Positions 4,550-20,697 of a stretch of DNA of 21,264 nucleotides are shown here, in pieces; the stretch's first letter is position 1, and every line of letters begins with the position of its first letter. The stretch is from a virus. The notes under the pieces were generated by a model, which searched no databases, had not been told where the DNA came from, and saw only the letters and a program-made list of their open reading frames with translations. A program made the position numbers and the translations under genes. The stretch covers positions 1 through 21,264 of IMG/VR virus record IMGVR_UViG_3300036829_000190. One strand, 5' to 3'.

Positions 4550-5713
4550 ATGACCTCCCAGGAATTGCGCGAGAAGCGCAGCAAACTCATGTTCGACGCG
4601 CACGCAATCATGTCGGGCGCAGAAGTCACGGCTGAGCAGCGTAGCAACGTAGATCGTATGCTGGCGGACGCCAACCAACTCAAGGCTGATGCCGAGCGCA
4701 TGGACGTGCTCGAAGCCGAGACCCGCAGCAACCGCACGGTGCCGCGCGGCAACCCCGGCGCATCGGATGCAACAGACACTCGCTCCGCAGATGAGCGTCG
4801 CTCGGCCACCAGCAAGGCCCTGCGCACCTATCTGACCACGGGCGTCGTCGAAAAGCGTGACCTGACCGTTGCCAGCAATGGCGGCGTGATGATCCCGGTC
4901 GGCGTGAGCGATCCCAAGATCGCCCTGAAGTCGGCTGGCGGCGTGTATGACCTGGTCTACAAGCTGCGCACTGATACGGGTGAGGCGATCAAGGTACCCT
5001 TCTTGAACGACACTGCCCAGGGCTTCGTCCTCAACAGCGCTGGCATCACGACCACCGATCCCTCGACCTCGGGTGTCACGATCTCGATCGACGACATTCG
5101 CATGAACCCAATCCTGCTTGAGAATTCGCTGATCCAGGACGCGGCGTTTGACTTGGTTGGATTCGTGGAAAAGGCTGCCTACAGCCGCTACCAGCGGACC
5201 ATGTCCAACTGGATCACGGGGGGCAACTCCTCGAACGTTGCAGGCCTGACGTCGATCACCGCTGGCATCACGGGCGCGACGACCTTGGTCCTCAAGTACG
5301 CGGACCTCAGCAACCTGAAGAACTCGTTGGACCCCGCGTATCAGCCTTCCAGTGTCTGGACGATGAACACCGCGACTCTGGGCTTGGTTGAACAGATCGT
5401 GGACACCAATGGCCGACCGATTTTCTTGAACTACACGGACGGAGGAGCTTCGGGATTTTCCGGCTCCCTTCTCGGCTTCCCCGTGAAGATCAACCCGTAT
5501 CAGCCGAGCATCGGTGTGGGCAACGCCTTCATCCAGTTCGGGAGCTTCGACCAGGGCTACACGCTCCGCGAAGTGAATCCGGGTATCGTGCTCAAGCAGA
5601 GCGATCAACGCTGGGTAGAACTAAATAGGCTCGGCGTAACCGCTTTTGCCCGCGTGGGCGGAGCAGTCACAGACGCGGGAACCCACCCGATCGTCACGCT
5701 GACCGGCAAGTAA
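4550..5713 (+). CDS. HK97-family phage major capsid protein
   Basis: This 387-aa protein forms the icosahedral shell. The ATG at 4550 is preceded by AAGGA at 4539-4543; a GTG at 4508 in the same frame would add 14 residues without a good ribosome site. Residues 1-60 (TSQELREKRSKLMFDA..., rich in charged helix) form the delta-domain-like scaffold arm expected to be removed by the upstream S78 protease, with a low-complexity link (about 62-85) before the mature shell domain starting near DLTVASNGGVMIP (104-116). The HK97-fold part carries familiar segments such as VPFLNDTAQGFVLNSAG (about 146-162), the IDDIRMNPILLENSLIQDA spine-helix region, and the C-terminal LLGFPVKINPYQP and FIQFGSFDQGYTLRE. 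Position directly after portal and protease is standard. Confidence 0.95.
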   Translation: MTSQELREKRSKLMFDAHAIMSGAEVTAEQRSNVDRMLADANQLKADAERMDVLEAETRSNRTVPRGNPGASDATDTRSADERRSATSKALRTYLTTGVVEKRDLTVASNGGVMIPVGVSDPKIALKSAGGVYDLVYKLRTDTGEAIKVPFLNDTAQGFVLNSAGITTTDPSTSGVTISIDDIRMNPILLENSLIQDAAFDLVGFVEKAAYSRYQRTMSNWITGGNSSNVAGLTSITAGITGATTLVLKYADLSNLKNSLDPAYQPSSVWTMNTATLGLVEQIVDTNGRPIFLNYTDGGASGFSGSLLGFPVKINPYQPSIGVGNAFIQFGSFDQGYTLREVNPGIVLKQSDQRWVELNRLGVTAFARVGGAVTDAGTHPIVTLTGK

Positions 5714-5718
5714 TCACC

Positions 5719-5749
5719 CCTCCGGGGCCGTGTAACAGCGGCCCCGAGG
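5719..5749 (+). terminator. Strong GC hairpin after major capsid gene
   Basis: CCTCCGGGGCCG (5719-5730) pairs with CGGCCCCGAGG (5739-5749) as an 11-bp stem with one bulged C and an 8-nt loop. Only a short broken T stretch (TCCTTTC) follows. It begins six bases past the capsid stop and ends 28 bases before the next ATG. It may act as a partial terminator or protect the 3' end of the capsid message, fitting the need for more capsid than connector protein. Confidence 0.6.
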
Positions 5750-5777
5750 TCCTTTCAGACTTTCCCCCGAGACCCAC

Positions 5778-6452
5778 ATGCCCCTGAGTTATAGAGAGAC
5801 ATCCGCACCCGCTGCGGAGTTGGTGAGCCTCGCGCAGACTAAGGCGCAGTGCGTCGTTGACGCCACATTCGCCGACGATGACGCTCTGCTCTCTAGCCTG
5901 GGGATCGCGGCACGGCAGTACATCGAAAAGCTGATCAACCGGGCGATCTACGACCGCACCATCCAGCTCAACCTCGACTACTTTCCGTACCCCAATTACA
6001 GCTCGACCATCAATCCCAACGACCGCCACTGCTTCTACGGGCGCTATTGGCACGAGCTGGCGATCCGCTTGCCGATGCCTCGCGCTGTCAGTGTGCAGTC
6101 GATCACCTATGTAGCGCTGGACGGCACGACGCAGACTCTCGATCCATCCCTCTACCGCGTAGACCTCAACTCCGAGCCCGCTCGGATCGTTCCCGCTCCA
6201 GGCCTGTACTGGCCGCAGGGTCAGACATACCTGCCCGGCAGCGTCACCATCACGTACACCGCTGGCACCTACGGCGATGGCGTCACCGTTGACACATGCC
6301 CGCAGACGATCAAGCACGCGGCGTTGATGTTGGTCTCGTACTGGTACGGCAACCGCGACGCAGCAGCCATGCAGCCACCGAAGCAAGTTGAGTTCGCAGT
6401 AAATGCGCTCCTCGCCGGTGAGATGTTCGACACCTTTGGGTACGGGCAATGA
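5778..6452 (+). CDS. Phage gp6-like head-tail connector protein
   Basis: This 224-aa protein is placed as the first neck protein, docking under the portal. The N-terminal half (EDDALLSSLGIAARQYIEKLINRAIYDRT-like region, about residues 34-63) and the C-terminal helix TIKHAALMLVSYWYGNRDA (about 178-196) match the phiE125 gp8 / HK97 gp6 connector pattern of paired helices; the middle (about 64-175, with many Tyr and Thr) is a beta-rich insert typical of the longer phiE125 gp8-type members. The start ATG at 5778 follows a weak ribosome site (CGAGA). Its stop overlaps the next start as ATGA at 6449-6452, implying coupled translation. Confidence 0.85.
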   Translation: MPLSYRETSAPAAELVSLAQTKAQCVVDATFADDDALLSSLGIAARQYIEKLINRAIYDRTIQLNLDYFPYPNYSSTINPNDRHCFYGRYWHELAIRLPMPRAVSVQSITYVALDGTTQTLDPSLYRVDLNSEPARIVPAPGLYWPQGQTYLPGSVTITYTAGTYGDGVTVDTCPQTIKHAALMLVSYWYGNRDAAAMQPPKQVEFAVNALLAGEMFDTFGYGQ

Positions 6453-6799
6453 GCGATCCGCTAATCATCCAGCCGGGTGATCTCCGCAACTCGATCACCA
6501 TCCAGGCCCAGTCCCAAACCAAGGATGAGTTCGGCCAGGCCATCTCCTCATGGACCAATGCGCTGACGACTCGCGCTCGCGTCCGCACCCTCGCACTCCG
6601 CGAGCAGTTCGGCCAGCCAGGCTTCTCCGGCCAAGCCACGCTCCAGGTCACGATGCGTTATCAGTCCGCCGTTGCGATCCTACCCGGCCAACGCATTGTC
6701 GTGGACGGGAAAACGCTCATCGTTCAATCCGTTGAAAACGTGCGCGAGCGCAACCGAATCATCAACGTGCTCGCGATCGAGCTACAGCCCACCCAATGA
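6449..6799 (+). CDS. Phage head closure protein (SPP1 gp16 / HK97 gp7-type)
   Basis: This 116-aa protein would be the head-closure (stopper) ring between connector and tail. It begins with LRNSITIQAQSQTKDEFGQA, the standard opening of phage head-tail joining proteins, followed by W (TNALTTRARVRTL), a central FSGQATLQVTMRY strand and the closing RIVVDGKTLIVQSVENVRERNRIINVLA, all expected for the small beta-barrel family. It overlaps the connector gene by 4 bp (ATGA) and the next gene by 4 bp (ATGA at 6796-6799), placing all three in one coupled neck operon. Confidence 0.88.
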   Translation: MSDPLIIQPGDLRNSITIQAQSQTKDEFGQAISSWTNALTTRARVRTLALREQFGQPGFSGQATLQVTMRYQSAVAILPGQRIVVDGKTLIVQSVENVRERNRIINVLAIELQPTQ

Positions 6800-7185
6800 T
6801 TGAGTCCGGCCTCACATCTCGCCTCCTCGCGGACACGACGCTTGCAGCCCTGATCGGCACCTCGATCTATCCCGTTCTGCTGCCAGAAGGCACATCGACT
6901 GCAGTGACCTACAGGGTGATCAGTAAGGTCCCCGATTACTCACTCACCTCTGCGCTCGGCATGGTCAAGGCACGGATCGAGTTCAACGCCTGGGCCGCGA
7001 CCTACGCCGCTGCCAAAGCGATCGAGGAAGCCATCCGCCTCTCGCTCGACGGCTACGCAGGGGCACTGCCCAACGGCGTGATCGTCGCCAACATACTGCG
7101 CGACAACGGTGCGATCGACGGCTTCGACCAAGATACCCGCCTCTACCGCGTCCAGATCGACTACCGCGTCATTTACGCCGAATAA
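6796..7185 (+). CDS. Tail terminator / completion protein, DUF3168-type
   Basis: This 129-aa protein resembles DUF3168 proteins, which are related to lambda gpU-type tail terminators and cap the head-proximal end of the tail tube. Visible family features are the opening ESGLTSRLLADTTLAALIG, IYPVLLPEGTSTAVTYRVIS (about residues 24-43), the strand RIEFNAWAATYAAAKAIEEA (about 60-79) and the C-terminal DTRLYRVQIDYRVIY. It is coupled to the head-closure gene by an ATGA overlap and is followed by a 59-bp gap with a short hairpin before the tail-tube gene. An HK97 gp10-like gene is normally found just before this one, but here it lies downstream, ahead of the tape measure. Confidence 0.83.
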   Translation: MIESGLTSRLLADTTLAALIGTSIYPVLLPEGTSTAVTYRVISKVPDYSLTSALGMVKARIEFNAWAATYAAAKAIEEAIRLSLDGYAGALPNGVIVANILRDNGAIDGFDQDTRLYRVQIDYRVIYAE

Positions 7186-7244: not shown

Positions 7245-7691
7245 ATGTCCACCGCATTCATTTTGGGGAAAGGCGCAGTCCTTTCCGCCTCGACCAACGG
7301 CACCACCTTCACCCCGGTCAACCAGCTCAAGCAGATCACGTTTTCCGGAGCCCAGTCCGACTTCGTGGATGTTACTAACCTCGGATCGACCGGTGCCTAC
7401 AAGGAGTTCGCGCCGACGTTGCTTGACTCCGGCACTGCCACCATCACCGGCATCCTGTCCCCTTCAGGTGATGCGGGACAGACCATGGTCGGCGCTGCTT
7501 TTGAAAATCAATCGTTGACGCACTGGAAACTCCAGTTTTCTCCCGCTGGCGCACAGACGACCGGGGCACTCCGCACGTTCAACGCATATGTGAGCAAGAA
7601 GCCTGTCATGAATGCGCAGCTCACCGATGCTGTCAGTTTCGACTTTGAATTAAAAGTGAGCGGCCCTATCACAGATACCGCAGGCGCATAA
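7245..7691 (+). CDS. Phage major tail tube protein
   Basis: This 148-aa protein would polymerise into the tail tube. ATG 7245 has AGGAG at 7231-7235, one of the best ribosome sites in the window, fitting high expression. The sequence is beta-rich with the tail-tube pattern FTPVNQLKQITFSGAQSDFVDVTN (about residues 25-48), where 'D-x-T-N' and the later GAYKEFAPTLLDSGTATITG (50-69) are the usual hallmarks of siphophage tube proteins (related to gpV and Hcp folds). No C-terminal Ig-like domain is present, so the protein is the minimal tube length. It sits between the tail terminator and the tail chaperone genes, the normal place, and is followed by a strong hairpin. Confidence 0.88.
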   Translation: MSTAFILGKGAVLSASTNGTTFTPVNQLKQITFSGAQSDFVDVTNLGSTGAYKEFAPTLLDSGTATITGILSPSGDAGQTMVGAAFENQSLTHWKLQFSPAGAQTTGALRTFNAYVSKKPVMNAQLTDAVSFDFELKVSGPITDTAGA

Positions 7692-7714
7692 CTCCCTCTC
7701 CCGATTAACCCAAC

Positions 7715-7740
7715 GCCCGCCGAGTGATCGGCGGGCTTAC
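7715..7740 (+). terminator. Perfect hairpin after tail tube gene
   Basis: GCCCGCCGA (7715-7723) and TCGGCGGGC (7728-7736) form a perfect 9-bp stem with a GTGA loop, followed by TTACTTAT. It looks like an intrinsic terminator with a weak T tract. It ends 17 bases before the chaperone ATG (7754), with only the ribosome site between, so read-through must supply the downstream genes. Confidence 0.65.
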
Positions 7741-7753
7741 TTATAGGACTCCC

Positions 7754-8128
7754 ATGTCTCACTCAGTTGCAGGCAAGCCCGGCCTCGATCCCACTCTGCC
7801 GGATGTAAGCGTGAAAATCGCCGGTCAGACGTATCAACTCGTTTTTTCGTTCAACTCGATCTGCGTGGTTGAATCCCTCACAGGCATCAACCTGCTGAAG
7901 GCATCCATCAGCGATGTCTCTGCGGTCAACGTCCGCGCCTTGCTGTACGCCGCACTGCTGCCTACGTATCCAGACATGACCCTCGAAGCTGCGGGCAACA
8001 TGGTCACGATGCGCAACGTCGGCACGCTTCACAACGCGCTCATCTCCGCTTGGTTCGGGAGTATCGAGACCGACTCTGACGCTGAGGACAACCCATCGGG
8101 GGAAGCGACGGCTCAGCCGAAGGGCTGA
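7754..8128 (+). CDS. Tail assembly chaperone, G-type (upstream frame)
   Basis: This 124-aa protein lies between tail tube and tape measure, where phages encode the G/GT chaperones that coat the tape measure during tail assembly. ATG 7754 is chosen because AGGA lies at 7745-7748; a GTG at 7724 in frame falls inside the terminator hairpin. The protein has the small globular helical pattern of this class (VKIAGQTYQLVFSFNSICVVE, then INLLKASISDVSAVNVRALL, then TLEAAGNMVTMRNVGTLHNA), similar to GTA gp11/TAC-type proteins, and ends in a hydrophilic tail. Near its 3' end a slippery site and stem (8098-8130) should shift a fraction of ribosomes into the -1 frame, giving a 239-aa G-T fusion ending at 8472. 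Confidence 0.75.
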   Translation: MSHSVAGKPGLDPTLPDVSVKIAGQTYQLVFSFNSICVVESLTGINLLKASISDVSAVNVRALLYAALLPTYPDMTLEAAGNMVTMRNVGTLHNALISAWFGSIETDSDAEDNPSGEATAQPKG

Positions 8129-8130
8129 GC
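8098..8130 (+). promoter_or_regulatory. Programmed -1 ribosomal frameshift signal
   Basis: The heptamer G GGG GAA (8098-8104) is in the correct phase: zero-frame codons are GGG (8099-8101) and GAA (8102-8104), and a -1 slip lets the GGG tRNA re-pair perfectly on GGG. A 6-nt spacer (GCGACG) is followed by a perfect 8-bp stem, GCTCAGCC (8111-8118) with GGCTGAGC (8123-8130), closed by a GAAG loop. The upstream-frame stop TGA (8126-8128) lies inside the stem. The -1 frame is open only from 8086, so the shift must happen in just this 43-nt window. Confidence 0.8.
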
Positions 8131-8472
8131 ATTCCGCACCTCTGGGCACGGGCCCGGGTGGACCTCAAGCTGTCCTCTGAAGAGTTCTTCGGGCTCACAC
8201 CGCGTCAGCTATTCCTGCTCTCCGAGTGCCATCGACGCGAAATGCTTCACCGCGAGATGACCGCCGCGCTCACCACGGCGTCCGTGATCAACCACTCGAT
8301 GAATCCATACGAGCAGCCGGTCAATTGGACGATGTTCGCACCGTCGCATCGAGACAACCTCAAGGCGAAGACAGCAGAGCGCGAGCCGACTGAAGAGCAG
8401 AAGAAACAGATCAGCGAGTACAACCTGCGTGTGCTTGAGATGGCCGCGAAAATGAAGGACGGCAATGCCTGA
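8104..8472 (+). CDS. Tail assembly chaperone, T-type extension made by -1 frameshift
   Basis: This is the downstream (-1) frame of the tail chaperone. It reads SDGSAEGLSIPHLWARARVD and then LKLSSEEFFGLTPRQLFLL, the typical 'lglspeeFw.lTPrel' motif of T-domains fused to phage tail chaperones, followed by a charged helical part ending EMAAKMKDGNA. A free start is unlikely: the first candidate is a GTG at 8158 with no ribosome site, and it would cut off the conserved LWARAR lead-in. The fusion protein would have 239 aa. The T part is thought to contact tail tube subunits while G coats the tape measure. The stop TGA (8470-8472) overlaps the next ATG (8465). Confidence 0.72.
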   Translation, partial: SDGSAEGLSIPHLWARARVDLKLSSEEFFGLTPRQLFLLSECHRREMLHREMTAALTTASVINHSMNPYEQPVNWTMFAPSHRDNLKAKTAEREPTEEQKKQISEYNLRVLEMAAKMKDGNA

Positions 8473-8941
8473 TGGCTTCGAGAAACTCATCGCGCAACTC
8501 CACTCACTCCAGGGTGAGGAGCTGCGCAAGATCGAACGCACGGCTCTCCAGGCCGTGAGCAACGTCATTACGCCCGCGCTGATCGAGGCCGCTCCCATTC
8601 AAGCTGGCGTGCCTGAAGGCATCCTCGCCCCCGGCGAGCTGAAGGCCAGCATCAAGCCTCGGGTGCACGTCGCAACGGACCAGCAGCGCACCCAGCGCGA
8701 GCACGGCTCGTACCTCGTCATCAAGCCCGTCGATAAGGACCTCAAGGGCTACAAGGCTGTCCAAGGCCCGTACAGCGTCGCGGTCTGGTTGGAGTACGGC
8801 CACGCAGGCCCGAAGTCAAGCTCCCCACGTACAAAGCCCCATCCATTCGTCCGCCCGACAGTTGACGCCGTACAGGCGAAGGCTGTTGAGACGTATGCAA
8901 CCACGATGACGGAAGAGATCAAGCGAGTGACAAATGCCTAG
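8465..8941 (+). CDS. HK97 gp10-like neck/tail protein, in unusual position
   Basis: This 158-aa protein has the HK97-gp10 family layout: an N-terminal helix (GFEKLIAQLHSLQGEELRKIER), a segment APIQAGVPEGILAPGELKASI (about residues 41-61) matching the 'aP.~tG~Lr~si' motif, and the C-terminal VAVWLEYGHAGPK...KPHPFVRPTVDA (about 107-139) matching 'fvEfGT....HPFlRPA'. Such proteins act in head-tail joining or tail completion. The gene usually lies between the head-closure and tail-terminator genes; here it follows the tail chaperones and overlaps both neighbours (8465-8472 and 8934-8941), so it is co-translated with the tape measure gene. Confidence 0.82.
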   Translation: MPDGFEKLIAQLHSLQGEELRKIERTALQAVSNVITPALIEAAPIQAGVPEGILAPGELKASIKPRVHVATDQQRTQREHGSYLVIKPVDKDLKGYKAVQGPYSVAVWLEYGHAGPKSSSPRTKPHPFVRPTVDAVQAKAVETYATTMTEEIKRVTNA

Positions 8942-11405
8942 CATCAGCGTCGTCTTCGACGCAGACACCGGAAAATTCGTAAGTAACGTCGCTGGCGCAG
9001 AGAAGTCTGTGATCAAGGCCTCGGAGGCCGTCGCCCAGGCGAAGAATCAGATTCTGTCCTGGGGCAAGGCTCAGGTCGAGCAGGCCCAGGCCGCTGGCCG
9101 ATCCTTCGAACAGCTTGAGCGCATTCAGACCCAGACTGCGCAGCGCCTGGCAAGTGTCACTGAGTCCAACGCCACCCGCGTCATCAACGCAATGGATCGC
9201 CAGCAGGCCAAGGCCAAGGCGCTCGCTGCAGAACTCGCCAACGTCAACCGCGTTGCTGCAGTCACCCGTCCTGAGTCACACGATCTGCTCGCTGGTATCA
9301 CCCAACGGCAGCAGGCATCAGCCATCATCCGTGCAGGTTCGGGCTCGATGTCGATCCGCGCTGCCGAATCGTTTGCAACGCTCCTCCCCGGCTTTGAAGC
9401 TGTCGCGGGTGCTGTATTCCCTATCGTCGGTGCCGCTGCGTTCGGCGCGGAAATCTACAGAGGCGTGGAAGCGCTGGCCAAAATGCGCGACGAGCAAGAA
9501 AAGGTCAAGGAGTCTCAGCAGGAGTTCGGGATTGCCAGCGCGGAGGTCTTCAAGGGTTACCGTGAGCAGCTCCTCCAGGCGGGTATGCGAGCCGACGAGC
9601 TGCGTGGAGATCACATCGGGGCGCTCCGCAAAGAGATGGAACTGCTGGACATGCAAGGCCTCGACAATCTGATGGGCGCGTTTACAAAGCTCGCCAAGAT
9701 CAGCGACGACACGCTCAAGACGGTCAAGGCCAACTGGCTCCAAGGCTTCGATTCCACGCTGCGTGCTGGTCTGGGCATGGACTACAGCGGCACAGACAAG
9801 ATCGATCGGACCCATACGCAATTCGGGCTGCAGTATCGATCGCTGCTGGCGGATAACAAACCCACCGACGCGCAGAATCTGCTCAACAAAACACAGCAGG
9901 AGCAGTCCGCACTCTTCACCCTGATGGGACGCGTCGTCAACTTCAAGCCTACGAGTGCAGGTGGTCAGGACTGGGATGCCATCACCCAGCTCAAGGCAAA
10001 GGGGCTCTACTCCAGCGCGACCTCTGACTTCGCCAAGATTTACCAGGCTCAGCAGACCTTGGTCGAAGAACTGACCGCCGCGCAGACCGCTGCCGCCGAT
10101 CAGCGGAAGCTTACCGGCCTGAACCGCAGCAACACGCTCGCGTCTGCCAACCGCCTCACCGGCAACCCCCTGAAGGAACAGGCGGAGACTCTGATGCAGG
10201 GGCTTAACCGCCTGCTCGAATCGGGTAAGGCATCAGGCCGTATCGAGAGCCCGGGGGATGTGCAGGACTTCTGGGCGAATGCAACCGGCCATCGCTCGCT
10301 CAGCGGAGGACCTGCAAGCGCAAATCCCTATCTGCAGGACGCGGCTCAGAAGGAATACAACGCCGCCACCATCGAGCTGAACAAGCAACTCAAAACTGCT
10401 GACGCTGCCCTCGCAAAGTGGAGCCTTGCGCTCGATGAAGAAGGCGTCAAAAAGCTGCAGCAGGAAGCTGCGGAGCGCTTGCGCATGCAGCGCGAGCAGC
10501 AGCAGGCCTACGTCAAAGCTCAGAAGGGTGCAGCAGATGACCAGATCGCATCCGCACGACTGCTGTACGCCCACGGGTACATCGGCAGCCGTGACGCGGC
10601 CCAGCAGGAGCTGAGCGCGTACCAGCGTCTCGGGCAGAACACCGGCCTGACGATGATGGATACGCCCGAGGGTGCGCAGCTCCGTGCAAAGATAGCGGAG
10701 CTTGAAGAGCAATTAGAGCCGCCCATCAACAAGCTCTTCGATTCGATCCGCCGCAACGCACAAGACACGAGCGACAAGATAGAGAAAATCACCGAGAAAC
10801 TCATCAGCGACGTCAATGACAACGTGGTGAGCACCATGTTCGGGGAGAGAACGGACTGGAGCGGAGCCTTCCGCAACGCAGGAAAGTCGCTCGCCAAAAC
10901 GGGTCTCGAAAAAGCAGAGGGTCTGCTCTTCGGTGGCGGGAAAAAGGCCAACGGTTACAACGTTTGGGTAGACAATCTGGGCGGCGCGGGCACTCCGGGC
11001 ACAGCAAATACCACCGGCGAGCAGAAGGGCTTACTCGGTGCTGCGGGCAAGAGCCTGCTCGGCTTCCTGAACGACAGTGACTGGGCGTCCGGCCTGTTCG
11101 GCGGAAAGTTGTTCGGCTCCGGCTCGTTCTTCGGTGGCGGCAAGGCCATCGGCGGCAGCGTCAACGCGGGCACGACTTACCTTATTGGCGAGCGGGGCCC
11201 GGAGCTATTCCGCCCCGGCGCATCGGGAAGCATCGTCCCCAACCACATGCTCGGCGGAAGCAACTCCACATACCACATCGACGCTCGCGGGACAGACCCT
11301 GCGATGACTCAGGTCGCGGTCCAGCGAGCCATGGTTGCTACCCACGCCCAGGCTGTGCGGGACGCAGGCCGGGCAATGGCTGACCGTCAACGTCGCACTG
11401 CTTAA
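8934..11405 (+). CDS. Phage tail tape measure protein
   Basis: At 823 aa this protein sets tail length and is ejected with the DNA. Residues 18-115 are Ala/Gln-rich coiled coil. A hydrophobic stretch at about 152-176 (GFEAVAGAVFPIVGAAAFGAEIY in part) is a likely membrane-active segment. A long helical middle (180-660) has repeated AQQTLVEELTAAQ-like coiled coil, and the C-terminus is Gly-rich (about 660-745) before the hallmark GERGPELFRPGASGSIVPNH (about 755-775), a widespread lambda-family tape-measure end. No muramidase or peptidase domain is visible. By the rough rule of 0.15 nm per residue the tail would be around 120 nm long; this is an estimate only. The start overlaps the gp10-like gene by 8 bp. 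Confidence 0.92.
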   Translation: MPSISVVFDADTGKFVSNVAGAEKSVIKASEAVAQAKNQILSWGKAQVEQAQAAGRSFEQLERIQTQTAQRLASVTESNATRVINAMDRQQAKAKALAAELANVNRVAAVTRPESHDLLAGITQRQQASAIIRAGSGSMSIRAAESFATLLPGFEAVAGAVFPIVGAAAFGAEIYRGVEALAKMRDEQEKVKESQQEFGIASAEVFKGYREQLLQAGMRADELRGDHIGALRKEMELLDMQGLDNLMGAFTKLAKISDDTLKTVKANWLQGFDSTLRAGLGMDYSGTDKIDRTHTQFGLQYRSLLADNKPTDAQNLLNKTQQEQSALFTLMGRVVNFKPTSAGGQDWDAITQLKAKGLYSSATSDFAKIYQAQQTLVEELTAAQTAAADQRKLTGLNRSNTLASANRLTGNPLKEQAETLMQGLNRLLESGKASGRIESPGDVQDFWANATGHRSLSGGPASANPYLQDAAQKEYNAATIELNKQLKTADAALAKWSLALDEEGVKKLQQEAAERLRMQREQQQAYVKAQKGAADDQIASARLLYAHGYIGSRDAAQQELSAYQRLGQNTGLTMMDTPEGAQLRAKIAELEEQLEPPINKLFDSIRRNAQDTSDKIEKITEKLISDVNDNVVSTMFGERTDWSGAFRNAGKSLAKTGLEKAEGLLFGGGKKANGYNVWVDNLGGAGTPGTANTTGEQKGLLGAAGKSLLGFLNDSDWASGLFGGKLFGSGSFFGGGKAIGGSVNAGTTYLIGERGPELFRPGASGSIVPNHMLGGSNSTYHIDARGTDPAMTQVAVQRAMVATHAQAVRDAGRAMADRQRRTA

Positions 11406-11413
11406 GAGGACCA

Positions 11414-11797
11414 ATGGCGCAAATAACGATCGCAAGCACGTCTATCCCGGGGTGGCAGGGCAGCTCCTCGGGGATCACGCTCCACATATACACCAACGCA
11501 GCCTTCGCTGCCGCGAGTGGCACTCTCTACCCGCAAACGATTCTGAGCAACGCAGCGAGCCTCGGGACCTTCTTCCTCTCGTTTGCATGCACCGTCTCAG
11601 GCGGTGCACTCGTGATCCCCGCGATCACGATCGACTCGACGACTGACGCGCTAGACAATCCGGCAGCTACCTATACAGCAGTGGTCTGGGACACCAACGC
11701 GGGCATGGCCGTGCAGCCGATCGGCACGTTCTATCTGCTTCCGTCGCCGACCAGCACCACCTGGGCCGCGATCTTCGCCGCTGAGGCCGTCAGCTAA
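11414..11797 (+). CDS. Unrecognised beta-rich tail-associated protein (127 aa)
   Basis: I do not recognise this family. ATG 11414 has a good ribosome site AAGAGGA (11404-11410) and starts nine bases after the tape measure stop, so it is in the same transcript. The sequence is rich in Ala, Thr, Ser and short beta strands (ITIASTSIPG, GITLHIYTN, ALVIPAITIDS, TYTAVVWDTNAG, GTFYLLP), with one Cys and no signal peptide, Walker or metal motif. The second half, with the strand pattern ATYTAVVWDTNAG..PIGTFYLLP...TTW, looks like a small Ig-like or beta-sandwich fold and is loosely similar in layout to residues 85-120 of the next gene. A structural or adaptor role in the tail is inferred from position only. 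A strong terminator-like hairpin follows. Confidence 0.7.
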   Translation: MAQITIASTSIPGWQGSSSGITLHIYTNAAFAAASGTLYPQTILSNAASLGTFFLSFACTVSGGALVIPAITIDSTTDALDNPAATYTAVVWDTNAGMAVQPIGTFYLLPSPTSTTWAAIFAAEAVS

Positions 11798-11821: not shown

Positions 11822-11849
11822 AGGCACCCACTCGGGTGCCTTTCCTTTT
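11822..11849 (+). terminator. Intrinsic terminator just before the fibre gene
   Basis: AGGCACCC (11822-11829) pairs with GGGTGCCT (11834-11841) around an ACTC loop and is followed by TTTCCTTTT, the best intrinsic-terminator match inside the structural region. It ends only 11 bases before the ATG at 11861, leaving no space for a downstream promoter, so it must be read through if the fibre gene is to be made. Confidence 0.75.
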
Positions 11850-11860: not shown

Positions 11861-14800
11861 ATGCTCAAGCGACTCATGCTCTCTCTGCTCCTGCTCCTGC
11901 CTATGACGGCGGCTGCGCAGGTCTCCATCACCGCGACTCACGTTGTCGATGCGTTCGAGCGTCCTCTTGCTGGGGCCAAGCTTTGCTTCGCGCCTGTCGA
12001 TGCCACCGCCACACCCACCGGCTTCCGCGTCGGCTCTGTGCAGGTCGTCACAGGAGCCGTCTGCGGACTCATCAGCAATGGTGCACTCCAGCCAGGCCTG
12101 AGCATCGCCCCCGGGCCGAGTGGCGTCTACTACCACGTCTGGGTAGCGAGCCGCGCGAATGAGATCGTCCGCGACTACGGGATGACACCCATCACGGGCA
12201 CCACATGGAGTCTCGACACTTACGATCCGACGAGCATGGCGGTTCTGCCTCAGCCGGTCACGATCGGCACTGTCACGACGCTGGCCTCCAACGCATCGCC
12301 GACCGCTTCGATCACCGGCACCGGCCCGTACTTGCTCAACCTGGGCATCCCTCAGGGTGCTTCGCCCAACGTCACAATGGGCACAGTAACAACGCTGTCG
12401 GCTGGGGCTACGGCAACCGCGCAGATCGTCGGCACTGCCCCGAACTTCACGGTCAATCTCAGCATCCCTCAGGGGGCTCAAGGCACGCAGGGTGTCCAGG
12501 GCGCAACAGGCCCGCAAGGCGCAACGGCCATCACAGGCATGAGCGGCGATGGAGCGGGCAATGCCACGCTCACGGGCACATTGACTTCCGGAGCCATGGT
12601 CCTCGGTGGTACCGGTGATCTCAAGGCCAGCACCTGCCGTCCCGTTCGCGGGGCAATCAACATCCAGGACTGCGGTGTTGTCAGCAGCACGGTACTGAAC
12701 CAAACATCTCAGGTCAAGACAGCAATGCAGGCTGCCCGCACATACAGCGTACCTCTGCTTTTGCCGGGAGGCATGACCGTTGATATTTGCAACCTCACTC
12801 TCGACTCTTCGACTAACCAGGTGGCTCTCATTGGCCCCGGTACGTCGGGTGGTGGCGGCGGCGCGGCAGCGTTCACATTTCAGGCGACGAGCACTTGTAC
12901 TGCGGGACCGACCGTGTCAGGCACGCCTCTTATAGGCGGAGTGTTGTTTGACGGATACTCGGGCGGCGGGTTCCAGCGTGCGAATCTCTGGCAGGGCATT
13001 ACCTTCGATCTGCGCAACGTCGGCATCCACGCGTTCTTTAACTACTTCGGGATCACCAACACCTACAAGTACAACACCTTCTCCGGCATGAAGGCTGATG
13101 GCGGTCAGGGGCTTACTCCTCAGAATCGTTCGACCTACATCTATGACGATCTGGCGGAATATAACGACTACAACTACAACTATTTCCAGGGCTCGAAGGG
13201 CTATGCGTTCTACGCCACCAACTGCAACCGCTGCACGACCGAGCACAACCTGATTTACACCCAGGGCGGGGTTGGATTCTTCGGCGGTTACGCGATGACT
13301 TCGACCGCAGACGACTGGGAAGGTGTCTTTTCCAACCCGTGGGACACCACGAATTCGATCTGGGAAATGGGTCTCGGAACATTCACGAACGAAATCTCCA
13401 ACATGTACATGGAGGTGATCAACTCTGCTACCTGCGGACTCGTCAGCGCCAGCGTCACAAGCAATGTCGCCACAGTGGTCGCCAATTGCAACACGATGAG
13501 TCTGGCCGTTGGCAACTATGTGGGCCTGGCGGGCACCCACACCATTGACGCGAATAACTCTCTTGTTTCAACGGTGACGGTGAACTCGCCCGTCTCCGGT
13601 CAGACAACGATCACATACCCGTTGACCCATGCCGATGCGGCAGTGACTACATACAGCATCACCGGCTTCCCGACGTGTAACAGCTATCCCAACGTCGCTA
13701 ATGTGTGCTATGCAACCCTCAGCACTGTACCGACCGGCCTGCGTGCCCATGACTGGATCACCATCTCCGGTACCGGAACTTGCGCAGACGGTTCAAACCA
13801 GACGCAGGTCATTAACGGCACCACAATCGGGGTTTCTCTTGCGTCTGCCTGTGCGCCGACCACGACAGCGACGGGCACCGCTGTATTCGGAGCAGTGCGC
13901 GGCGGTCAATCAATCAACAACCCCACCCTGTTCTGGGCACGGCAGAACTACGGCACGATCAAACTGCACGGCAACTACGCGAATTTCGGCACGGTGCCTG
14001 CCAACTTCGGAGCCGTATTCGTCAACAGCATCAATCCGGCAGACGTCAGCTCAAACACGGTATTGCGGGCGGACGCAGTGTTCTCGGGGCCGTCGAATGC
14101 ACTCCCCCCGGCTGGCTCGCAGGTATCTGGGAATTATGCTAACGACGTTGATTCCACCGGTTCATACGGGCTCGGAATAATGACCCTGCTCGGGGCGGCT
14201 GATACGCAGGGGGCTGCCTGGCTGGGAGACCTCGGCGCGTCCTACTACACCGCAGGACATCGTCATGCATTTTATGGCGGCCCGATCAATCAGTGCGCGT
14301 ACGAAGACCTGTCCACCTCGGTAACCTGGACTGACCTGGGCACCTGCAATATCCACCTCATCTCCTCGACCAACGCCGCGACGATCTCGACTGTGTATAA
14401 CGCCAAGGTGCCCCAGGTTGACAACGTCCAACGCAGCATGCCTGGCTACTTCACGTTTGAGGCAGCGAACGGCAACACGACATTGGCGAACGCGCAGTTC
14501 AACAATGCCAGCGGCGCGAACTTCCCGCTTCCGGCAAACAGGCCGGTGCTCTACCAGGTTGGATATAACGGCGTGGTGCGCGAAGTCGGCGCATGGAGCA
14601 CCATGCTTAGTCAGTCAGCCGGACGACTCTGGTACTCGGACGGCGCTAAGCCAGTCTCTGTTGCGCTGACCGGATTCGTCAAAGCCAACACCAGCGGCGC
14701 ACCAACCGCAGTAGCCCCAAGCGGTAACGGCACCGCCGTCGCAACAACGTCGGTGACCACCGACAGCGCTGGTCAATCAGCCTGTTGGGATGGGGTGCAC

Positions 14801-15199
14801 AACCTAACCAACTCAGGATGCAGCGGTGGAAGTGGTGGCACATTCTTCTCGGCACATCTGACCGGGCAGACGGCGTCAATCGGTAATACAACCATTACCA
14901 CCGTTGGTGGTGCCCGGCAGTGCTTCATTGCGAATAGCGTGATTCATACGACAACCGTGGGAACCAGCGGCACAGTTACCAGCGCCTTCGGAACCACCAT
15001 TGATGGAACGTCAGGTATAAACGTGGGTCAATCTAGCTCAGTTACAGCCACAGCAGCGCCTAATAATGGTGCTTCGTTGGGCCTGAACACGCGCTACTTC
15101 TGCGCGGACGCTGGTGCTGCAGTTTATTACTTCACCACCTCCACGGCGGCGGGCGGGCATGTCTACAACCTGGACGTGTCGTTGCAGGCGGTGCCGTAA
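11861..15199 (+). CDS. Fibre/tailspike-like protein with Sec signal peptide
   Basis: This is a 1112-aa modular protein. Residues 1-19 are a textbook Sec signal (KR, then LMLSLLLLLPM, then AAA before Q20), unexpected for a phage fibre. Residues 20-130 form a beta-rich domain; 134-167 and 172-206 are two copies of a GTVTTL...IPQGA repeat; 205-222 is a short collagen-like Gly-X-X run. Residues 260-520 are Asn/Gly/Tyr-rich with a pattern like a right-handed beta helix (LWQGITFDLRNVGIHAFFNYFGITN), as in tailspikes. The C-terminal ~125 residues look like a separate beta-sandwich tip. Twenty Cys are spread along the chain. The likely role is receptor or surface-glycan binding; a secreted host-modifying protein is the alternative. 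It lies between tape measure and tail-tip genes, bounded by hairpins. Confidence 0.85.
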   Translation: MLKRLMLSLLLLLPMTAAAQVSITATHVVDAFERPLAGAKLCFAPVDATATPTGFRVGSVQVVTGAVCGLISNGALQPGLSIAPGPSGVYYHVWVASRANEIVRDYGMTPITGTTWSLDTYDPTSMAVLPQPVTIGTVTTLASNASPTASITGTGPYLLNLGIPQGASPNVTMGTVTTLSAGATATAQIVGTAPNFTVNLSIPQGAQGTQGVQGATGPQGATAITGMSGDGAGNATLTGTLTSGAMVLGGTGDLKASTCRPVRGAINIQDCGVVSSTVLNQTSQVKTAMQAARTYSVPLLLPGGMTVDICNLTLDSSTNQVALIGPGTSGGGGGAAAFTFQATSTCTAGPTVSGTPLIGGVLFDGYSGGGFQRANLWQGITFDLRNVGIHAFFNYFGITNTYKYNTFSGMKADGGQGLTPQNRSTYIYDDLAEYNDYNYNYFQGSKGYAFYATNCNRCTTEHNLIYTQGGVGFFGGYAMTSTADDWEGVFSNPWDTTNSIWEMGLGTFTNEISNMYMEVINSATCGLVSASVTSNVATVVANCNTMSLAVGNYVGLAGTHTIDANNSLVSTVTVNSPVSGQTTITYPLTHADAAVTTYSITGFPTCNSYPNVANVCYATLSTVPTGLRAHDWITISGTGTCADGSNQTQVINGTTIGVSLASACAPTTTATGTAVFGAVRGGQSINNPTLFWARQNYGTIKLHGNYANFGTVPANFGAVFVNSINPADVSSNTVLRADAVFSGPSNALPPAGSQVSGNYANDVDSTGSYGLGIMTLLGAADTQGAAWLGDLGASYYTAGHRHAFYGGPINQCAYEDLSTSVTWTDLGTCNIHLISSTNAATISTVYNAKVPQVDNVQRSMPGYFTFEAANGNTTLANAQFNNASGANFPLPANRPVLYQVGYNGVVREVGAWSTMLSQSAGRLWYSDGAKPVSVALTGFVKANTSGAPTAVAPSGNGTAVATTSVTTDSAGQSACWDGVHNLTNSGCSGGSGGTFFSAHLTGQTASIGNTTITTVGGARQCFIANSVIHTTTVGTSGTVTSAFGTTIDGTSGINVGQSSSVTATAAPNNGASLGLNTRYFCADAGAAVYYFTTSTAAGGHVYNLDVSLQAVP

Positions 15200-15250: not shown

Positions 15251-15275
15251 GGGCGACCTTCGGGTCGCCCTTCTC
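15251..15275 (+). terminator. Hairpin after the fibre gene
   Basis: GGGCGACC (15251-15258) pairs perfectly with GGTCGCCC (15263-15270) around a stable TTCG tetraloop and is followed by TTCTC. It resembles an intrinsic terminator with a weak T tract. It lies in the 88-bp gap after the fibre stop and ends 17 bases before the next ATG (15288), again leaving no space for a promoter. Confidence 0.65.
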
Positions 15276-15287: not shown

Positions 15288-15932
15288 ATGTCCATCATCG
15301 GCACCTTCAACGGGGCGAGCATCATCGCGCTCCCCTCCGACACTCTCCCCACTGTCCCGGCACCGTCTTCGATCGAGTGGAGCCCGCAGGAAGTGGTGAG
15401 CGTCAACACCAGCCCATTCACCGGGCAGACCCAAACGTACGACTGGCAGGCATCGTGGTGGGAGGGGCAGGTATCGTTCCCGCCAATGAATCGCTGGGCG
15501 AGCGACGCGTGGTCCGCTTTCATTCTCTCCTTACGCGGACAGACAAACGTGTTCCTCATGGGCGATCCCAAGGCCAACCTGCCTAAGGGTGCGGCCATGG
15601 GCACTCCCGTCGTTGCGGGCGCGGGCCAGACAGGCTACCAGCTCGTTACGCGGGGGTGGACGGCGAACCAAACCTCACTCCTCATCGCCGGTGACTACAT
15701 TCAGATCGGCTACCGCCTGTACAAGGTGCTGAGCAATGCATCGAGCGATGGTTCCGGCAACGCAACGCTTGCAGTGTGGCCCAACCTTCGTGATCAGCCA
15801 GCAGATGGCACCACCATCATCACTCGCAATTGCAAGGGCCTGTTCCGCCTCAAGGCGAACAGCGGAAACAAGTGGAGCATCAACCCGGGAAGCTACGGCC
15901 TGTCCGGCTTCGCCATCCGTGAGGCGATCTAA
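15288..15932 (+). CDS. Distal tail-like protein
   Basis: This 214-aa protein opens the tail-tip cluster. I use ATG 15288 after the hairpin, with a weak GGGA at 15279-15282; an upstream in-frame start at 15114 would lie inside the fibre gene. The sequence is beta-rich with many Trp (YDWQASWWEGQVSFPPMNRWASDAWSAF at about residues 48-75) followed by LRGQTNVFLMGDP and a second beta domain ending FRLKANSGNKWSINPGSYGLSGFAIREA. This layout of a ring-forming N-domain plus beta insertion, and the position two genes before the NlpC-like and J-like genes, fit a distal tail (Dit-type) protein. Domain assignment is inference from pattern and context. Its stop overlaps the next ATG (TAATG, 15930-15934). 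Confidence 0.65.
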   Translation: MSIIGTFNGASIIALPSDTLPTVPAPSSIEWSPQEVVSVNTSPFTGQTQTYDWQASWWEGQVSFPPMNRWASDAWSAFILSLRGQTNVFLMGDPKANLPKGAAMGTPVVAGAGQTGYQLVTRGWTANQTSLLIAGDYIQIGYRLYKVLSNASSDGSGNATLAVWPNLRDQPADGTTIITRNCKGLFRLKANSGNKWSINPGSYGLSGFAIREAI

Positions 15933-16549: not shown

Positions 16550-16983
16550 TCGCTCGACTCCCAGACTGGCAATCAGCACTCAGCGCCTACATCCTCAGCC
16601 GGGCCCAGACGCCCTTCAGGTACGGCCAGCTTGACTGCGGGCTCTTTGTCGCTGACGCGATTCAGGCGATGACGGGCGTGGATGTGGCTGCTCCTCTCCG
16701 AGGCCGCTACACCAACCGCAAGCAGGCCTTCGAAGCCATAAAAGCTCTCTGCGGCTCTGCTTCGATGGAGGCCCTGGCCAACTACCTAAGTAGTGAACAT
16801 GGTTTGCCTCAGGTACGGGTGCTCCTCGCCCAGCGGGGCGATCCAGTCGTGCTTCGCACCGGCCAGCGTTCCTCACTCGGGATCGTTGACCTAGTACCCG
16901 GTTATCTCCTCACTCCTTACAGAGACGGACTCCTCCGTCTACCTCTCTCCTGCGCGTCACGCACATTCCACATAGGTCAATAA
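16546..16983 (+). CDS. DUF6950 / NlpC-P60-like tail protein, TTG start
   Basis: This 145-aa protein begins at TTG 16546, overlapping the previous TGA as TTGA; an in-frame TAA at 16540-16542 rules out any earlier start, and the conserved RLPDWQSALSAYI follows at once, so TTG is the only sensible start. The family pattern is clear: FRYGQLDCGLFVADAIQAMTG (about 24-44) with the nucleophile-type Cys C31, LRGRYTNRKQAFEAI (51-65), QRGDPVVL (about 105-112) and a closing hydrophobic strand pair. In NlpC/P60 peptidases a His follows 'GDvv...gHvgi', but here the matching place reads RSSLGIVDLV without His, as in the DUF6950 group. It may therefore be a structural or weakened relative of the tail peptidoglycan peptidase (gpK-like). 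Confidence 0.8.
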   Translation: MIARLPDWQSALSAYILSRAQTPFRYGQLDCGLFVADAIQAMTGVDVAAPLRGRYTNRKQAFEAIKALCGSASMEALANYLSSEHGLPQVRVLLAQRGDPVVLRTGQRSSLGIVDLVPGYLLTPYRDGLLRLPLSCASRTFHIGQ

Positions 16984-19934
16984 TGAGCAAGGCAGTCACG
17001 GAAGTAGCAGTCGGCGCGGCGGCTATAGGCATGGCTATTGCCATGCCCGGCATCGGTGCGGGCCTCGCCTGGATGACTCTCGGCATGCAGAACGCGATCA
17101 TCGGATCGCTCGCATCCATTGGTGCGTCGCAGGTTTTCGCCGGTGTGTCTGACGCGATCGGACGCAATCAGGGCGGCCTGGCTATCGGTGTCACGACCCC
17201 CATCGGACCCTGGGCTTACGTGTACGGCACGCAAAAGGTTGGCGGTGTCGAAATCTTCCGCGAATCGAACAACAACACCGGCGTAAGCGGCTCCACGTCG
17301 GCGGATAAACAGCTCCACCGAATTTACTGTCTCGCCGCGCATCCCTGTGAAATCGGCAGCGACTGGCAACTCCGCATCGATGGTAAGCAAGTGCTGGTCC
17401 GGCAGGACACTCACGCACCCACCGACTACGTGAGCTACAGCCCCACGCAGTTACAACACAACATCACAAGCATCAGCCGCACCAACGGTGTTGTGACCAT
17501 GACGCTCGATGGCGGCATGTCCCCAGAGACAGATGGCACCACGCTCCAAGTGCGTTCGGTCGCCGATCGCACGTTTAATGGCACCTGGATCGTCACCCAA
17601 GCTAACCCGACCGACCTCACCACGTGGACCTTTGTGTGTGGCGGGCCTGATGCCACCACTTCAGGTGGCAACGCGCGTACCACCTACTCGGACTACAAGG
17701 ACAAGATTCGCGTCTCCTTTCTCGATGGCAACCACACCAGCACATTCCCTACACTCCTCGCAGCGGGCACGACCTGGACCGCCAACGATCTCTGTCTGGG
17801 CCGGACCCTCGCCTATGTGCAGATGGGTTACGATGACACCGTCTTCCCGTCGTCTATCCCCAACGTAAGCTTCGTCATCAAGGGGAAGAGCGACATCCTC
17901 GATCCTCGGTCTGGCACACGCGGATGGACGAATAACGCAGCGCTCTGCATTGCGGACTTCTTGAGCCTTCCGCCGACCAAGGGGGGATTCGGTCTCACCA
18001 TCGGCACCGACATTCCCACCGCTGCACTCATCGCAGCAGCGAACGTGTGTGATGAACAAGTTCTGCTCAACGCAGGCGGCACGATCAAGCGCTACACCTG
18101 CGACACGTTTTTCATGCTCAACTCTCCGCGCGGAGCAATCCTCAAGGACATGCTCAGCTCCTGTGCTGGCCGGATCAGTTATCAGGGCGGCACGTACATG
18201 ATCCAGCCCGGTGCATGGGTCACACCAACGCTGCAATTGACAGACGCTGACCTGGTCGGGCCGATCAAGTGGAGGCCCCGGCACTCGATCCGCGATACCG
18301 CCAATGGCGTCAAAGGGACGTTCATCAGCCCCGAGAACGCATACCAGCAGGCCGATATCCCTCCTTACATGCAGGACGCAGATCACGGGTATGTCAGCGA
18401 TCCATGGCTGGCTGAGGACAATGGCGAGCGCATCTTCGCGGAGGCTAACTTCCCATGCACAGACTCCTCCGCCACAGCACAGCGGCTGGCCAAGATCGCG
18501 TTGCTCCGCACGCGCTACCAAGGCCGTGGAACGATCCGCGTCAACCTCAAGGGATACCAGGCGGTCGCGCTCGACATCATCCAGATCACGCACCCGCATT
18601 ACACCTGGCTGAACAAAAACTTCGAAGTGCTCGCGTCTCGGTTCGGGATCGATAAGAGCGGTGACGCTCCTCTGCCTTATGTGGAGCTAGACATTGCTGA
18701 GACTGATTCTTCGATCTACGACTGGAATCCGATCGAGCAGTTGACGCCTCAAGATTACAAGCAGCCCAATAATGTTGGCGTGCGTATCTGCATGCCTCCA
18801 GAGGACGTCACAGGCTACTCAGGACCGGGCGCAACCATCAATGGCTTCACCTACCCCTCCACGATCACCACGGGCGCGGATGGGCGTATCCAGAACTCGA
18901 TCTACATCCATTGGACGCAACCCAACGATGCAAACGTCGTGTTCGGCGGACATCTTGAGGCGCAATGGCAGATGGTGGGCACAACCACCTGGAGTGGCCT
19001 CGCAAAGGTTGACGCTTCTGCTGATCACCTGTGGATTCCAAACGTCAGCGATGGACAGCAATACAACGTGCAGGTGCGAGCCGTAAACACGGCGGGCGTA
19101 CCCAGCGACTGGGTCTTCTGTGGACCGATCACGGTATCAAACCAACTCAGCTCGATCAGCTATTCAGGCATCGAGCTTGGACCACCCGGCACGTTGATGG
19201 CGCAGGGACTCGCAGACGGTACGGCTCAGATCACGGTCCTCCCATTTACGGGCACGATCGGTGCACTGTCGGCGGACTTTACTCCGAGTCCCAACACGAT
19301 CAGCGGCCTGAATCAGTCGCAGCTCTATTACGTCTACTTTGTCCGCAGCACATTTACGGATGGAACGATCGACCCGATCGCGACGCAGACGCCGTCCGAC
19401 TTCGAGGGACAGACCGGCTACTTCCTGATCGGGTCGATTGTCACGCCGAGCTACACTCCCCGGTACCAACCGAGCCGCTTCTCCGACGTTGGCAACTCAT
19501 CCACGAGCAATGCTCAAGCGGCCTACGACAACGACGTCACCACTTACGCAGTCGTCGTTGCCACCTGGTGGAGCACTGCCACGGGCACGCCATCGGGCCC
19601 GGTCTTCGCGTATCACTCGGTCACCGGTGACTGCGTCTGGAGTGGCTTCCCTGCCATCACCACGACCGCTGACACAACGCTCCACGTCATCACCAGCGCT
19701 GCTGCAAGCACTGCGACGGCCTGGAGTTGCGCTGTCTCGGTCAAGATCGGCGGGACGACGACGACGCTCATCTCATTCAGCGCTGCGTCAGCCGAGAGTG
19801 ATTACACGATGACGATCCCAGCGGGCACTGACCTTAGCACGATCTCAGTTGAGGCGACCGCGAACATCACCGCTGATTCATCGCCGGGTAGCGGCTGGGC
19901 AAAGATGCAAGGCTTCGAAATTTATGTAAGTTGA
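16983..19934 (+). CDS. Tip attachment / host-specificity protein, gpJ-like
   Basis: This 983-aa protein is the central tail tip. It starts at ATG 16983, overlapping the previous TAA by one base. Residues 1-58 have two hydrophobic Gly/Ala-rich helices (VGAAAIGMAIAMPGIGAGLAW; IIGSLASIGASQVFAGV), then the characteristic GPWAYVYGTQKVGGVEIF (75-92), as found at the start of J-type tail proteins. The middle (about 290-560) is the hub-like part with LCIADFLSLPPTKGGFGL and a RISYQGGTYMIQPGAW strand. At about 635-720 lies a fibronectin-III-like domain (IYIHWTQPND...YNVQVRAVNTAGVPSDW). The C-terminal 250 residues are Thr/Ser-rich beta structure, probably the receptor-facing end. It would close the tube and trigger DNA release on host contact. 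Confidence 0.88.
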   Translation: MSKAVTEVAVGAAAIGMAIAMPGIGAGLAWMTLGMQNAIIGSLASIGASQVFAGVSDAIGRNQGGLAIGVTTPIGPWAYVYGTQKVGGVEIFRESNNNTGVSGSTSADKQLHRIYCLAAHPCEIGSDWQLRIDGKQVLVRQDTHAPTDYVSYSPTQLQHNITSISRTNGVVTMTLDGGMSPETDGTTLQVRSVADRTFNGTWIVTQANPTDLTTWTFVCGGPDATTSGGNARTTYSDYKDKIRVSFLDGNHTSTFPTLLAAGTTWTANDLCLGRTLAYVQMGYDDTVFPSSIPNVSFVIKGKSDILDPRSGTRGWTNNAALCIADFLSLPPTKGGFGLTIGTDIPTAALIAAANVCDEQVLLNAGGTIKRYTCDTFFMLNSPRGAILKDMLSSCAGRISYQGGTYMIQPGAWVTPTLQLTDADLVGPIKWRPRHSIRDTANGVKGTFISPENAYQQADIPPYMQDADHGYVSDPWLAEDNGERIFAEANFPCTDSSATAQRLAKIALLRTRYQGRGTIRVNLKGYQAVALDIIQITHPHYTWLNKNFEVLASRFGIDKSGDAPLPYVELDIAETDSSIYDWNPIEQLTPQDYKQPNNVGVRICMPPEDVTGYSGPGATINGFTYPSTITTGADGRIQNSIYIHWTQPNDANVVFGGHLEAQWQMVGTTTWSGLAKVDASADHLWIPNVSDGQQYNVQVRAVNTAGVPSDWVFCGPITVSNQLSSISYSGIELGPPGTLMAQGLADGTAQITVLPFTGTIGALSADFTPSPNTISGLNQSQLYYVYFVRSTFTDGTIDPIATQTPSDFEGQTGYFLIGSIVTPSYTPRYQPSRFSDVGNSSTSNAQAAYDNDVTTYAVVVATWWSTATGTPSGPVFAYHSVTGDCVWSGFPAITTTADTTLHVITSAAASTATAWSCAVSVKIGGTTTTLISFSAASAESDYTMTIPAGTDLSTISVEATANITADSSPGSGWAKMQGFEIYVS

Positions 19935-19945
19935 CAAGGACACCC

Positions 19946-20218
19946 ATGGATCAAGTACAAAGCACCGGGCAGATGCTGCTCGATGAGTTCCGTCAATTCC
20001 GGCGCGATCTCGGAGAGTGGCAGAGAGAAACAGGTGAGCGGCTGGCTCGCCTGGAGACAGAAGTCAAGAGCGGCATATCAGGCAACGGTCAGCCGTCGCG
20101 ACTCAAAATGGTGGAAGGCCGCGTCGATGCGCTGGAGCACTTCCGCTGGTACCTGGCCGGTGGCTTGTTCGTGGCGGCGGGCGTGGTGGAGATGATCCTC
20201 CATGCGGTGGCCAAATGA
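19946..20218 (+). CDS. XhlA-like coiled-coil membrane protein of the lysis cassette
   Basis: This 90-aa protein starts at ATG 19946 with AAGGA at 19936-19940; a TTG at 19931 would lack that site. Residues 10-40 form a charged coiled coil (DEFRQFRRDLGEWQRETGERL region), residues 50-66 continue as helix, and residues 67-86 (RWYLAGGLFVAAGVVEMIL) form one transmembrane helix, with a short basic tail. A coiled coil followed by a single C-terminal membrane helix is the plan of XhlA-type haemolysin/holin-accessory proteins. The overlap with the lysozyme gene (ATGA, 20215-20218) suggests it takes part in releasing the lysozyme to the wall. No second membrane helix is present, so it is not a classical holin; the call is inference from architecture and context. 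Confidence 0.65.
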   Translation: MDQVQSTGQMLLDEFRQFRRDLGEWQRETGERLARLETEVKSGISGNGQPSRLKMVEGRVDALEHFRWYLAGGLFVAAGVVEMILHAVAK

Positions 20219-20640
20219 AGTACAGCAAAGATGGGCTCCATCTGACGGAGCAGTTCGAAGCTTGCAAACTCGTCGCTTACCCAGACTCAAGAGGCGTCTG
20301 GACGCTAGGCTACGGCCACACCGCTGGAGTACATGCAGGCATGACCTGCTTGCAAGCGCAGGCCGAGGCCTGGTTGGTAGAGGACATCGCCTGGGCCGAG
20401 GGCCGAGTGAATGCGGACGTGCATGTGCCTTTGACGCAGGGCGAGTTCGACGCGCTGGTGGACTTCGTCTTCAATTGTGGTGTCGGCAACTTCGAGCACT
20501 CGACGCTGCTGAAGCTGGTCAACGCTGGCGACATGAACCATGCAGCGGGTGAGTTTGAGAAGTGGGATCACTGCGGCGGGGTGGTTGTGGCCGGGCTGCT
20601 GCGGCGGCGTGTGGCTGAGGATGCGGAGTTCGTGAGCTAA
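20215..20640 (+). CDS. Phage lysozyme, GH24 endolysin
   Basis: This 141-aa enzyme would cut the glycan strand of peptidoglycan to release progeny. It shows the T4-lysozyme-type active site in order: E15 in LTEQFEACKL, D24 in AYPDSRGVW, and T30 in WTLGYGHT, with the usual spacing. The second lobe has LTQGEFDALVDFVFNCGVG (about 74-92), the family's 'l.~~q~dALvsfaFN~G~g' motif, and the end LLRRRVAEDAEF matches the usual 'gL.rRR~aE~~L~'. There is no N-terminal signal or SAR helix, so it needs a holin-like partner, probably the gene just upstream with which it overlaps by 4 bp. Length is normal for the compact phage form. Confidence 0.93.
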   Translation: MKYSKDGLHLTEQFEACKLVAYPDSRGVWTLGYGHTAGVHAGMTCLQAQAEAWLVEDIAWAEGRVNADVHVPLTQGEFDALVDFVFNCGVGNFEHSTLLKLVNAGDMNHAAGEFEKWDHCGGVVVAGLLRRRVAEDAEFVS

Positions 20641-20665: not shown

Positions 20666-20697
20666 GGGCCGGGATCGCTCCCGGCCCTTGTCTATTT
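20666..20697. terminator. Strong bidirectional intrinsic terminator
   Basis: GGGCCGGGA (20666-20674) and TCCCGGCCC (20679-20687) form a perfect 9-bp stem with a TCGC loop, followed by TTGTCTATTT on the plus strand and, on the minus strand, by ATTTCATT. It sits between the lysozyme stop and the 3' end of a converging minus-strand gene, so it closes both transcripts. Confidence 0.85.

Follow-up and report, generated by a model that had tools for sequence, protein, structure and literature searches.

A tail fibre with a putative cleavable Sec signal peptide in an uncultured tailed phage and its possible assembly with the virion from two compartments

Tailed phages are taken to complete their particles in the cytoplasm, and the locus described here raises the question of why a large phage fibre should begin with what looks like a signal for export from it. 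The locus lies in a 21,264-base IMG/VR virus record, a fragment, which is called the window in the following text (G+C approx. 60%). The open reading frame starts with ATG at 11861 and extends to 15199 on the plus strand, as do the window genes, domains and flanking hairpins located below, and it encodes 1112 amino acids. The initial annotation of this DNA offered several uses for such a signal, i.e., a protein exported during lysogeny, an uncleaved hydrophobic tail anchor, or an internal start giving a cytoplasmic virion form. A reading that was absent from it, namely export followed by attachment to the virion, is the one that we find most likely.

The phage, which is uncultured, siphovirus-like and tailed, has a dsDNA genome and encodes a capsid protein, a terminase, a tape measure protein and an endolysin. 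Its late module is colinear, with terminase, portal, protease, capsid and head-tail genes followed by the tape measure protein (8934–11405, PHROG match), a leaderless beta protein of 127 amino acids that we call gp127 (11414–11797), and the fibre. On the 3' side of the fibre there follow a distal-tail-type protein (15288–15932, the functional name being taken from its position), a further tail protein, an NlpC-like DUF6950 protein, a J-like central tail protein (16983–19934, phrog_31 and phrog_5616), a small protein with a C-terminal hydrophobic segment that is a holin-like candidate (19931–20218), and the endolysin (20215–20640, Phage_lysozyme, PF00959), which has no signal peptide of its own. 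A strong bidirectional terminator-like hairpin at 20666–20687, 3' of the lysozyme gene, is likely to be the end of the late operon. No integrase was recognised within the 21,264-base fragment.

It had been claimed that the protein is of the fibre or spike type, and this holds as a prediction, for which speak the fold of its anchor domain, its place in the tail module and the PHROG tail-fibre matches of its relatives. The mature N-terminal domain (residues 20–123, 11918–12229), which carries Cys42 and Cys68, was modelled by AlphaFold as an eight-stranded beta-sandwich with a pLDDT of 90.5. Against solved structures, Foldseek matched it to the Bxb1 tail tip and the tail fibre of cyanophage A-1(L) with a probability of 1.00 (E 1.6e-3 to 2.2e-2), and to the P22 tail complex and tailspike with a probability of 0.93–0.97, while the best matches among the viral predicted structures of BFVD include tail-fibre and P22-tailspike N-domains. 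By this argument, which is made at the level of fold and with modest E-values, the mature N-terminus would be a virion-anchor-type domain. It is followed by two 'GTVTTL...IPQGA' repeats and a short collagen-like stalk (12254–12526), with the repeats also present in the L002–L009 fibres, and by a variable C-terminal body (12527–15199) that contains 18 Cys as consecutive local pairs. Both a gene within the tail module and a variable C-terminus are features of tail fibres.

The window fibre itself matched no Pfam or PHROG family, and its body had no relative in IMG/VR, phage isolates or PDB sequences. Searches of isolates and plasmids with the whole or N-terminal fibre sequences gave no match, and no confirmed relative came out of genome-contig scans that used the anchor domain or the distal-tail protein as query. 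The signal-bearing relatives L020, L014 and L022 were assigned to PHROG tail-fibre or minor-tail families. Additionally, the body of L020 has homologues among proteins of isolate phages (of Escherichia, Klebsiella, Rhodococcus and Stenotrophomonas) that are annotated as tail fibres or spikes; the two homologues of this body that were examined (Ptacy1537 and JZBo1) are leaderless, with 3 Cys in 751 and 4 Cys in 885 residues, compared with 12 in 886 for L020. Within one subfamily, both a signal-bearing fibre (L067:3583-6654) and a leaderless one (L065:4001-6157) carry GDSL/SGNH hydrolase domains, and two phages have two signal-bearing fibres each with differing bodies (L034:3138-6080 and 7767-9608; L035:3433-5442 and 5456-6934, the latter pair in tandem).

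The fibre N-terminus reads MLKRLMLSLLLLLPMTAAA followed by QVSITATHVV, with an n-region of two positive charges, a Leu-rich core and an AAA-Q site after residue 19 (leader at 11861–11917), so that all of the Sec/SPase I features (positive n-region, hydrophobic core, and A-x-A within approx. 18–30 residues) are present. Syntenic relatives were fetched with the distal-tail protein as bait, and the set was enlarged by scans with the anchor-domain alignment, gp127 and single domains to 32 signal-bearing fibre genes, window included, from related uncultured phage contigs. About two dozen relatives of the phage make a fibre with such a leader. It is conserved both among syntenic relatives (approx. 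12) and in fibres further removed, and what is kept is the cleavage motif (-1 Ala in 26/30 and +1 Gln in 23/30 leaders listed), while the letters of the core drift. L011, L012 and L014, which occupy the same slot, have leaders with other letters and an identical n/h/c plan, and their fibre bodies are very different in length and sequence. The calls were made with a simple home-made n/h/c-region scorer, not SignalP, which accepts 29/30 signal-bearing fibre N-termini compared with 5/131 other structural proteins, the latter scoring weaker.

It is therefore strongly supported, as a prediction from sequence, that residues 1–19 are a genuine and conserved Sec/SPase I signal peptide, which upholds the call of the initial annotation, and export of the fibre is likewise well supported, as the layout of its Cys and the leaderless homologues described below also argue. 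If the hydrophobic N-terminus were due to chance, or the start codon wrongly chosen, the protein would be an ordinary cytoplasmic fibre; we consider this the least probable explanation of all, given a leader conserved across the 32 fibre genes, the above scorer counts, and the coupling of the leader to paired Cys described below.

Gln at +1 of signal peptidase I substrates, known as the Q-rule, is limited to Bacteroidetes (PMC5837995, PMC10653852). The +1 Gln of the phage fibres resembles this rule despite the G+C content of the window, and could be a clue to the host, although this difference in composition means that the phage host may lie outside Bacteroidetes. Acidobacteriota could be a host group, which is a guess on our part.

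The initial annotation drew attention to 20 Cys in the rest of the chain. The count is correct, with all of them in the mature chain and none in the leader, but their density is not special, since it amounts to 1.6–1.8% in these fibres and is similar in the J, DIT and NlpC-like proteins of the same phages. High Cys content was accordingly dropped as evidence of export, J and other tail proteins being equally Cys-rich, and an even number of Cys over the whole chain (19/22 compared with 50/78 controls) was at most suggestive, so a pairing test was used instead. What is special is the local pairing. When the mature Cys are taken in order as pairs (1–2, 3–4 and so on), the gaps within pairs of the window fibre are 26, 12, 36, 3, 18, 10, 23, 17, 12 and 60 residues, while the gaps between pairs are 191, 39, 109, 67, 63, 25, 148, 146 and 34, with p=0.0006 on shuffling of the gaps for this fibre alone. 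For 24 fibres pooled, the within-pair fraction was 0.23 compared with 0.56 expected (0/20,000 shuffles), which is not a clean probability as the pooled fibres are related, although their bodies differ widely. Control proteins were unpaired (J p=0.89, DIT 0.81, gp15932 0.29, gp5778 0.51), except for weaker pairing in the NlpC-like protein (p=0.01, 6 proteins). Since such pairs in the mature fibre imply an oxidising compartment, the mature chain appears to be adapted to one, and the spacing of the Cys predicts approx. ten local disulphides, including Cys42-Cys68.

Homologues lacking the leader were envisaged by the initial annotation together with a conserved start further downstream. Five of them do exist (L031, L033, L036=L016, L065 and L066), while the conserved downstream start does not, as they are separate lineages in which the coding sequence opens at the anchor domain with an ATG of its own. 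They have no Cys pairs and so speak for a connection between leader and disulphides. In the tree set, the anchor domain has 2 or 4 Cys in 30/30 signal-bearing fibres, compared with 0, 0, 1, 1 and 2 in the five leaderless ones. Between L035/L067 and L036/L065/L066, the leaderless side retains the Cys of 'CVQP', and its strand-partner Cys is replaced by Gly. The tree has three changes of signal state, and the Cys pairs shift likewise in 2–3 of the three independent contrasts, three pairs being too few for significance. Other leaderless fibres with 'GTVTTL' repeats are also Cys-poor. The leaderless gene of L016 (7401-9868) is found in two overlapping frames (7401-8216 and 8108-9868), because of a frameshift or a sequencing error.

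These homologues bear on two further explanations, close to readings that the initial annotation had put forward, that are disfavoured here. According to the first, the hydrophobic N-terminus stays uncleaved and serves as a virion anchor or a membrane-active peptide, for which it speaks that the segment is hydrophobic and at the virion-proximal end of the fibre. However, it is the SPase I motif and not the core that is conserved, the anchor domain comes first in the five leaderless homologues, and paired Cys imply that the chain reaches an oxidising compartment, so that we hold this to be highly improbable. According to the second, which seems to us slightly more improbable still, translation from an internal start yields the virion form in the cytoplasm, with the full-length form exported for another purpose. 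In its favour, the leaderless homologues prove that synthesis of the domain does not require a leader, but they are without the Cys pair, which suggests that the two forms are differently adapted; moreover, no start codon 3' of the leader is conserved across homologues, and in the window there are start codons only at codons 6, 15 and 60, with Shine-Dalgarno-like sequence absent by eye.

The genes of gp127 and the fibre form a cassette between the tape measure and the distal-tail protein; both cassette genes are missing in L010, L013 and L015, where the tape measure is followed directly by the distal-tail-type gene. Every gp127 with a readable next gene has a signal-bearing fibre directly 3', at a gap of approx. 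0–12 nt in most relatives, 30 nt in L022 and 63 nt in the window. The protein has no leader, its fold model reaches a pLDDT of 81, and it gave weak matches to the XM1 neck and the Ur-lambda tail tip; it could be a cytoplasmic docking protein or adaptor on the tail. Remote homology between gp127 and the anchor domain was not significant by hhalign (2.5% probability). Since gp127 was not detected with several more distant signal-bearing fibres (L028, L029, L032, L034 and L035), it is not universally needed, and in some of the more distant phages signal-bearing fibres are found elsewhere in the tail module, e.g., after J (L028) or before the tape measure (L035). The sole Cys of gp127, Cys59, is invariant in 12/12 aligned homologues although the protein is leaderless, and a mixed disulphide between it and the fibre after lysis is conceivable. 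In L023 (12216-13295), the distal-tail gene is in two pieces with approx. 460 nt between them, as if interrupted by an intron, an intein or the insertion of a gene.

A protein that is exported need not return to the virion. The fibre-derived protein could be a secreted depolymerase of surface polysaccharides, a receptor-masking or superinfection-exclusion factor or an adhesin, possibly a moron expressed by the lysogen, and we consider such a role possible, albeit doubtful. It would fit the real signal peptide and the paired Cys, the dispensability of the cassette in the three relatives without it, and the terminator-like hairpins that flank the fibre gene in the window (11822–11841, between gp127 and the fibre, and 15251–15270, 3' of the fibre). 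The latter hairpin has similar counterparts in L014, L018 and L021 and weaker ones in L011 and L046, but the upstream one was found in the window only and not in the relatives checked, and a search limited to sigma-70-like promoters gave 0 for the fibre gene compared with 3.7 expected. A tailspike-like fold is also reported for a bacterial envelope enzyme, WceF of Pantoea (PMC7949094). Against a purely secreted role are the virion-anchor-type domain at the mature N-terminus, the position of the gene within the tail module and directly 3' of gp127 in relatives, the variable C-terminal body, which is typical of receptor-binding proteins, and the leaderless L016/L036 homologue, which fills the same slot between tape measure and distal-tail gene. 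From the initial proposal of a decoy, adhesin or exclusion factor made during lysogeny, the export part survives, while nothing points to lysogeny: the gene lies in the tail module, in most relatives closely behind a virion-like tail gene, and its mature N-terminus has a virion-anchor fold.

Attachment to the virion is preferred to a purely secreted role on three grounds: cleavage exposes the very domain by which fibres are fixed to virions, the same slot is filled in relatives by leaderless homologues, and lysis by the leaderless endolysin should mix the compartments. To hypothesize, Sec would export the fibre precursor and signal peptidase I would cut it after residue 19, and the periplasmic chain would then oxidise to the predicted disulphides, that of the anchor domain included. 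Meanwhile the cytoplasm would be the site of head and tail assembly, where leaderless gp127 may serve as the dock. Once the envelope gives way to holin and endolysin, the two compartments would mix and the exposed anchor domain would dock on the tail, making the fibre the last part to be added. We regard this route as rather probable, with export, cleavage and periplasmic oxidation of the fibre followed, at lysis, by its addition to tails built in the cytoplasm; the final attachment is what we infer from the arguments above. The broader statement, that a tailed-phage lineage builds its virion in two compartments joined only at lysis, with head and tail plus gp127 made in the cytoplasm and disulphide-bonded receptor-binding fibres brought to the periplasm via Sec, stands in our judgement evenly between being right and wrong.

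If true, part of a tailed virion would be matured outside the cytoplasm by the Sec and oxidative-folding machinery of the host, and this would account for how such phages come by receptor-binding proteins that are oxidised and stable. The assembly pathway is directly testable, and annotators should neither discard such genes nor move their start codons.

Regarding known systems, the P22 tailspike head-binding domain, the A-1(L) fibre and the Bxb1 tip share with the window fibre an N-terminal beta-sandwich anchor of the same broad fold, and siphophage and podophage tail fibres and tailspikes also share the collagen-like stalk, the variable receptor-binding body and the place in the tail module. 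The proteins of P22, A-1(L) and Bxb1 have no signal peptide and are products of the cytoplasm; unlike them, the window fibre has paired Cys and, before its anchor domain, a predicted cleavable Sec leader. Within the partial coverage of the literature searched, no description of a signal peptide on a tail fibre was found, and by analogy the nearest counterparts of a secretory tail fibre are lambda Lom and pIII of filamentous phages. Lom is an outer-membrane beta-barrel with a signal peptide, expressed in lysogens from a gene among the tail genes (PMC12309495). It is thus phage-encoded, exported by a signal peptide and placed among tail genes, like the window fibre, but it is a lysogenic-conversion barrel, whereas the window protein is a large fibre with a putative virion-anchor domain. 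The receptor-binding virion protein pIII has a cleaved Sec leader and disulphide-bonded N-domains, and it shares with the window fibre this logic of leader and disulphides; filamentous phages, however, are non-lytic, membrane-assembled and ssDNA, whereas the window phage has the gene set of a tailed dsDNA phage given above.
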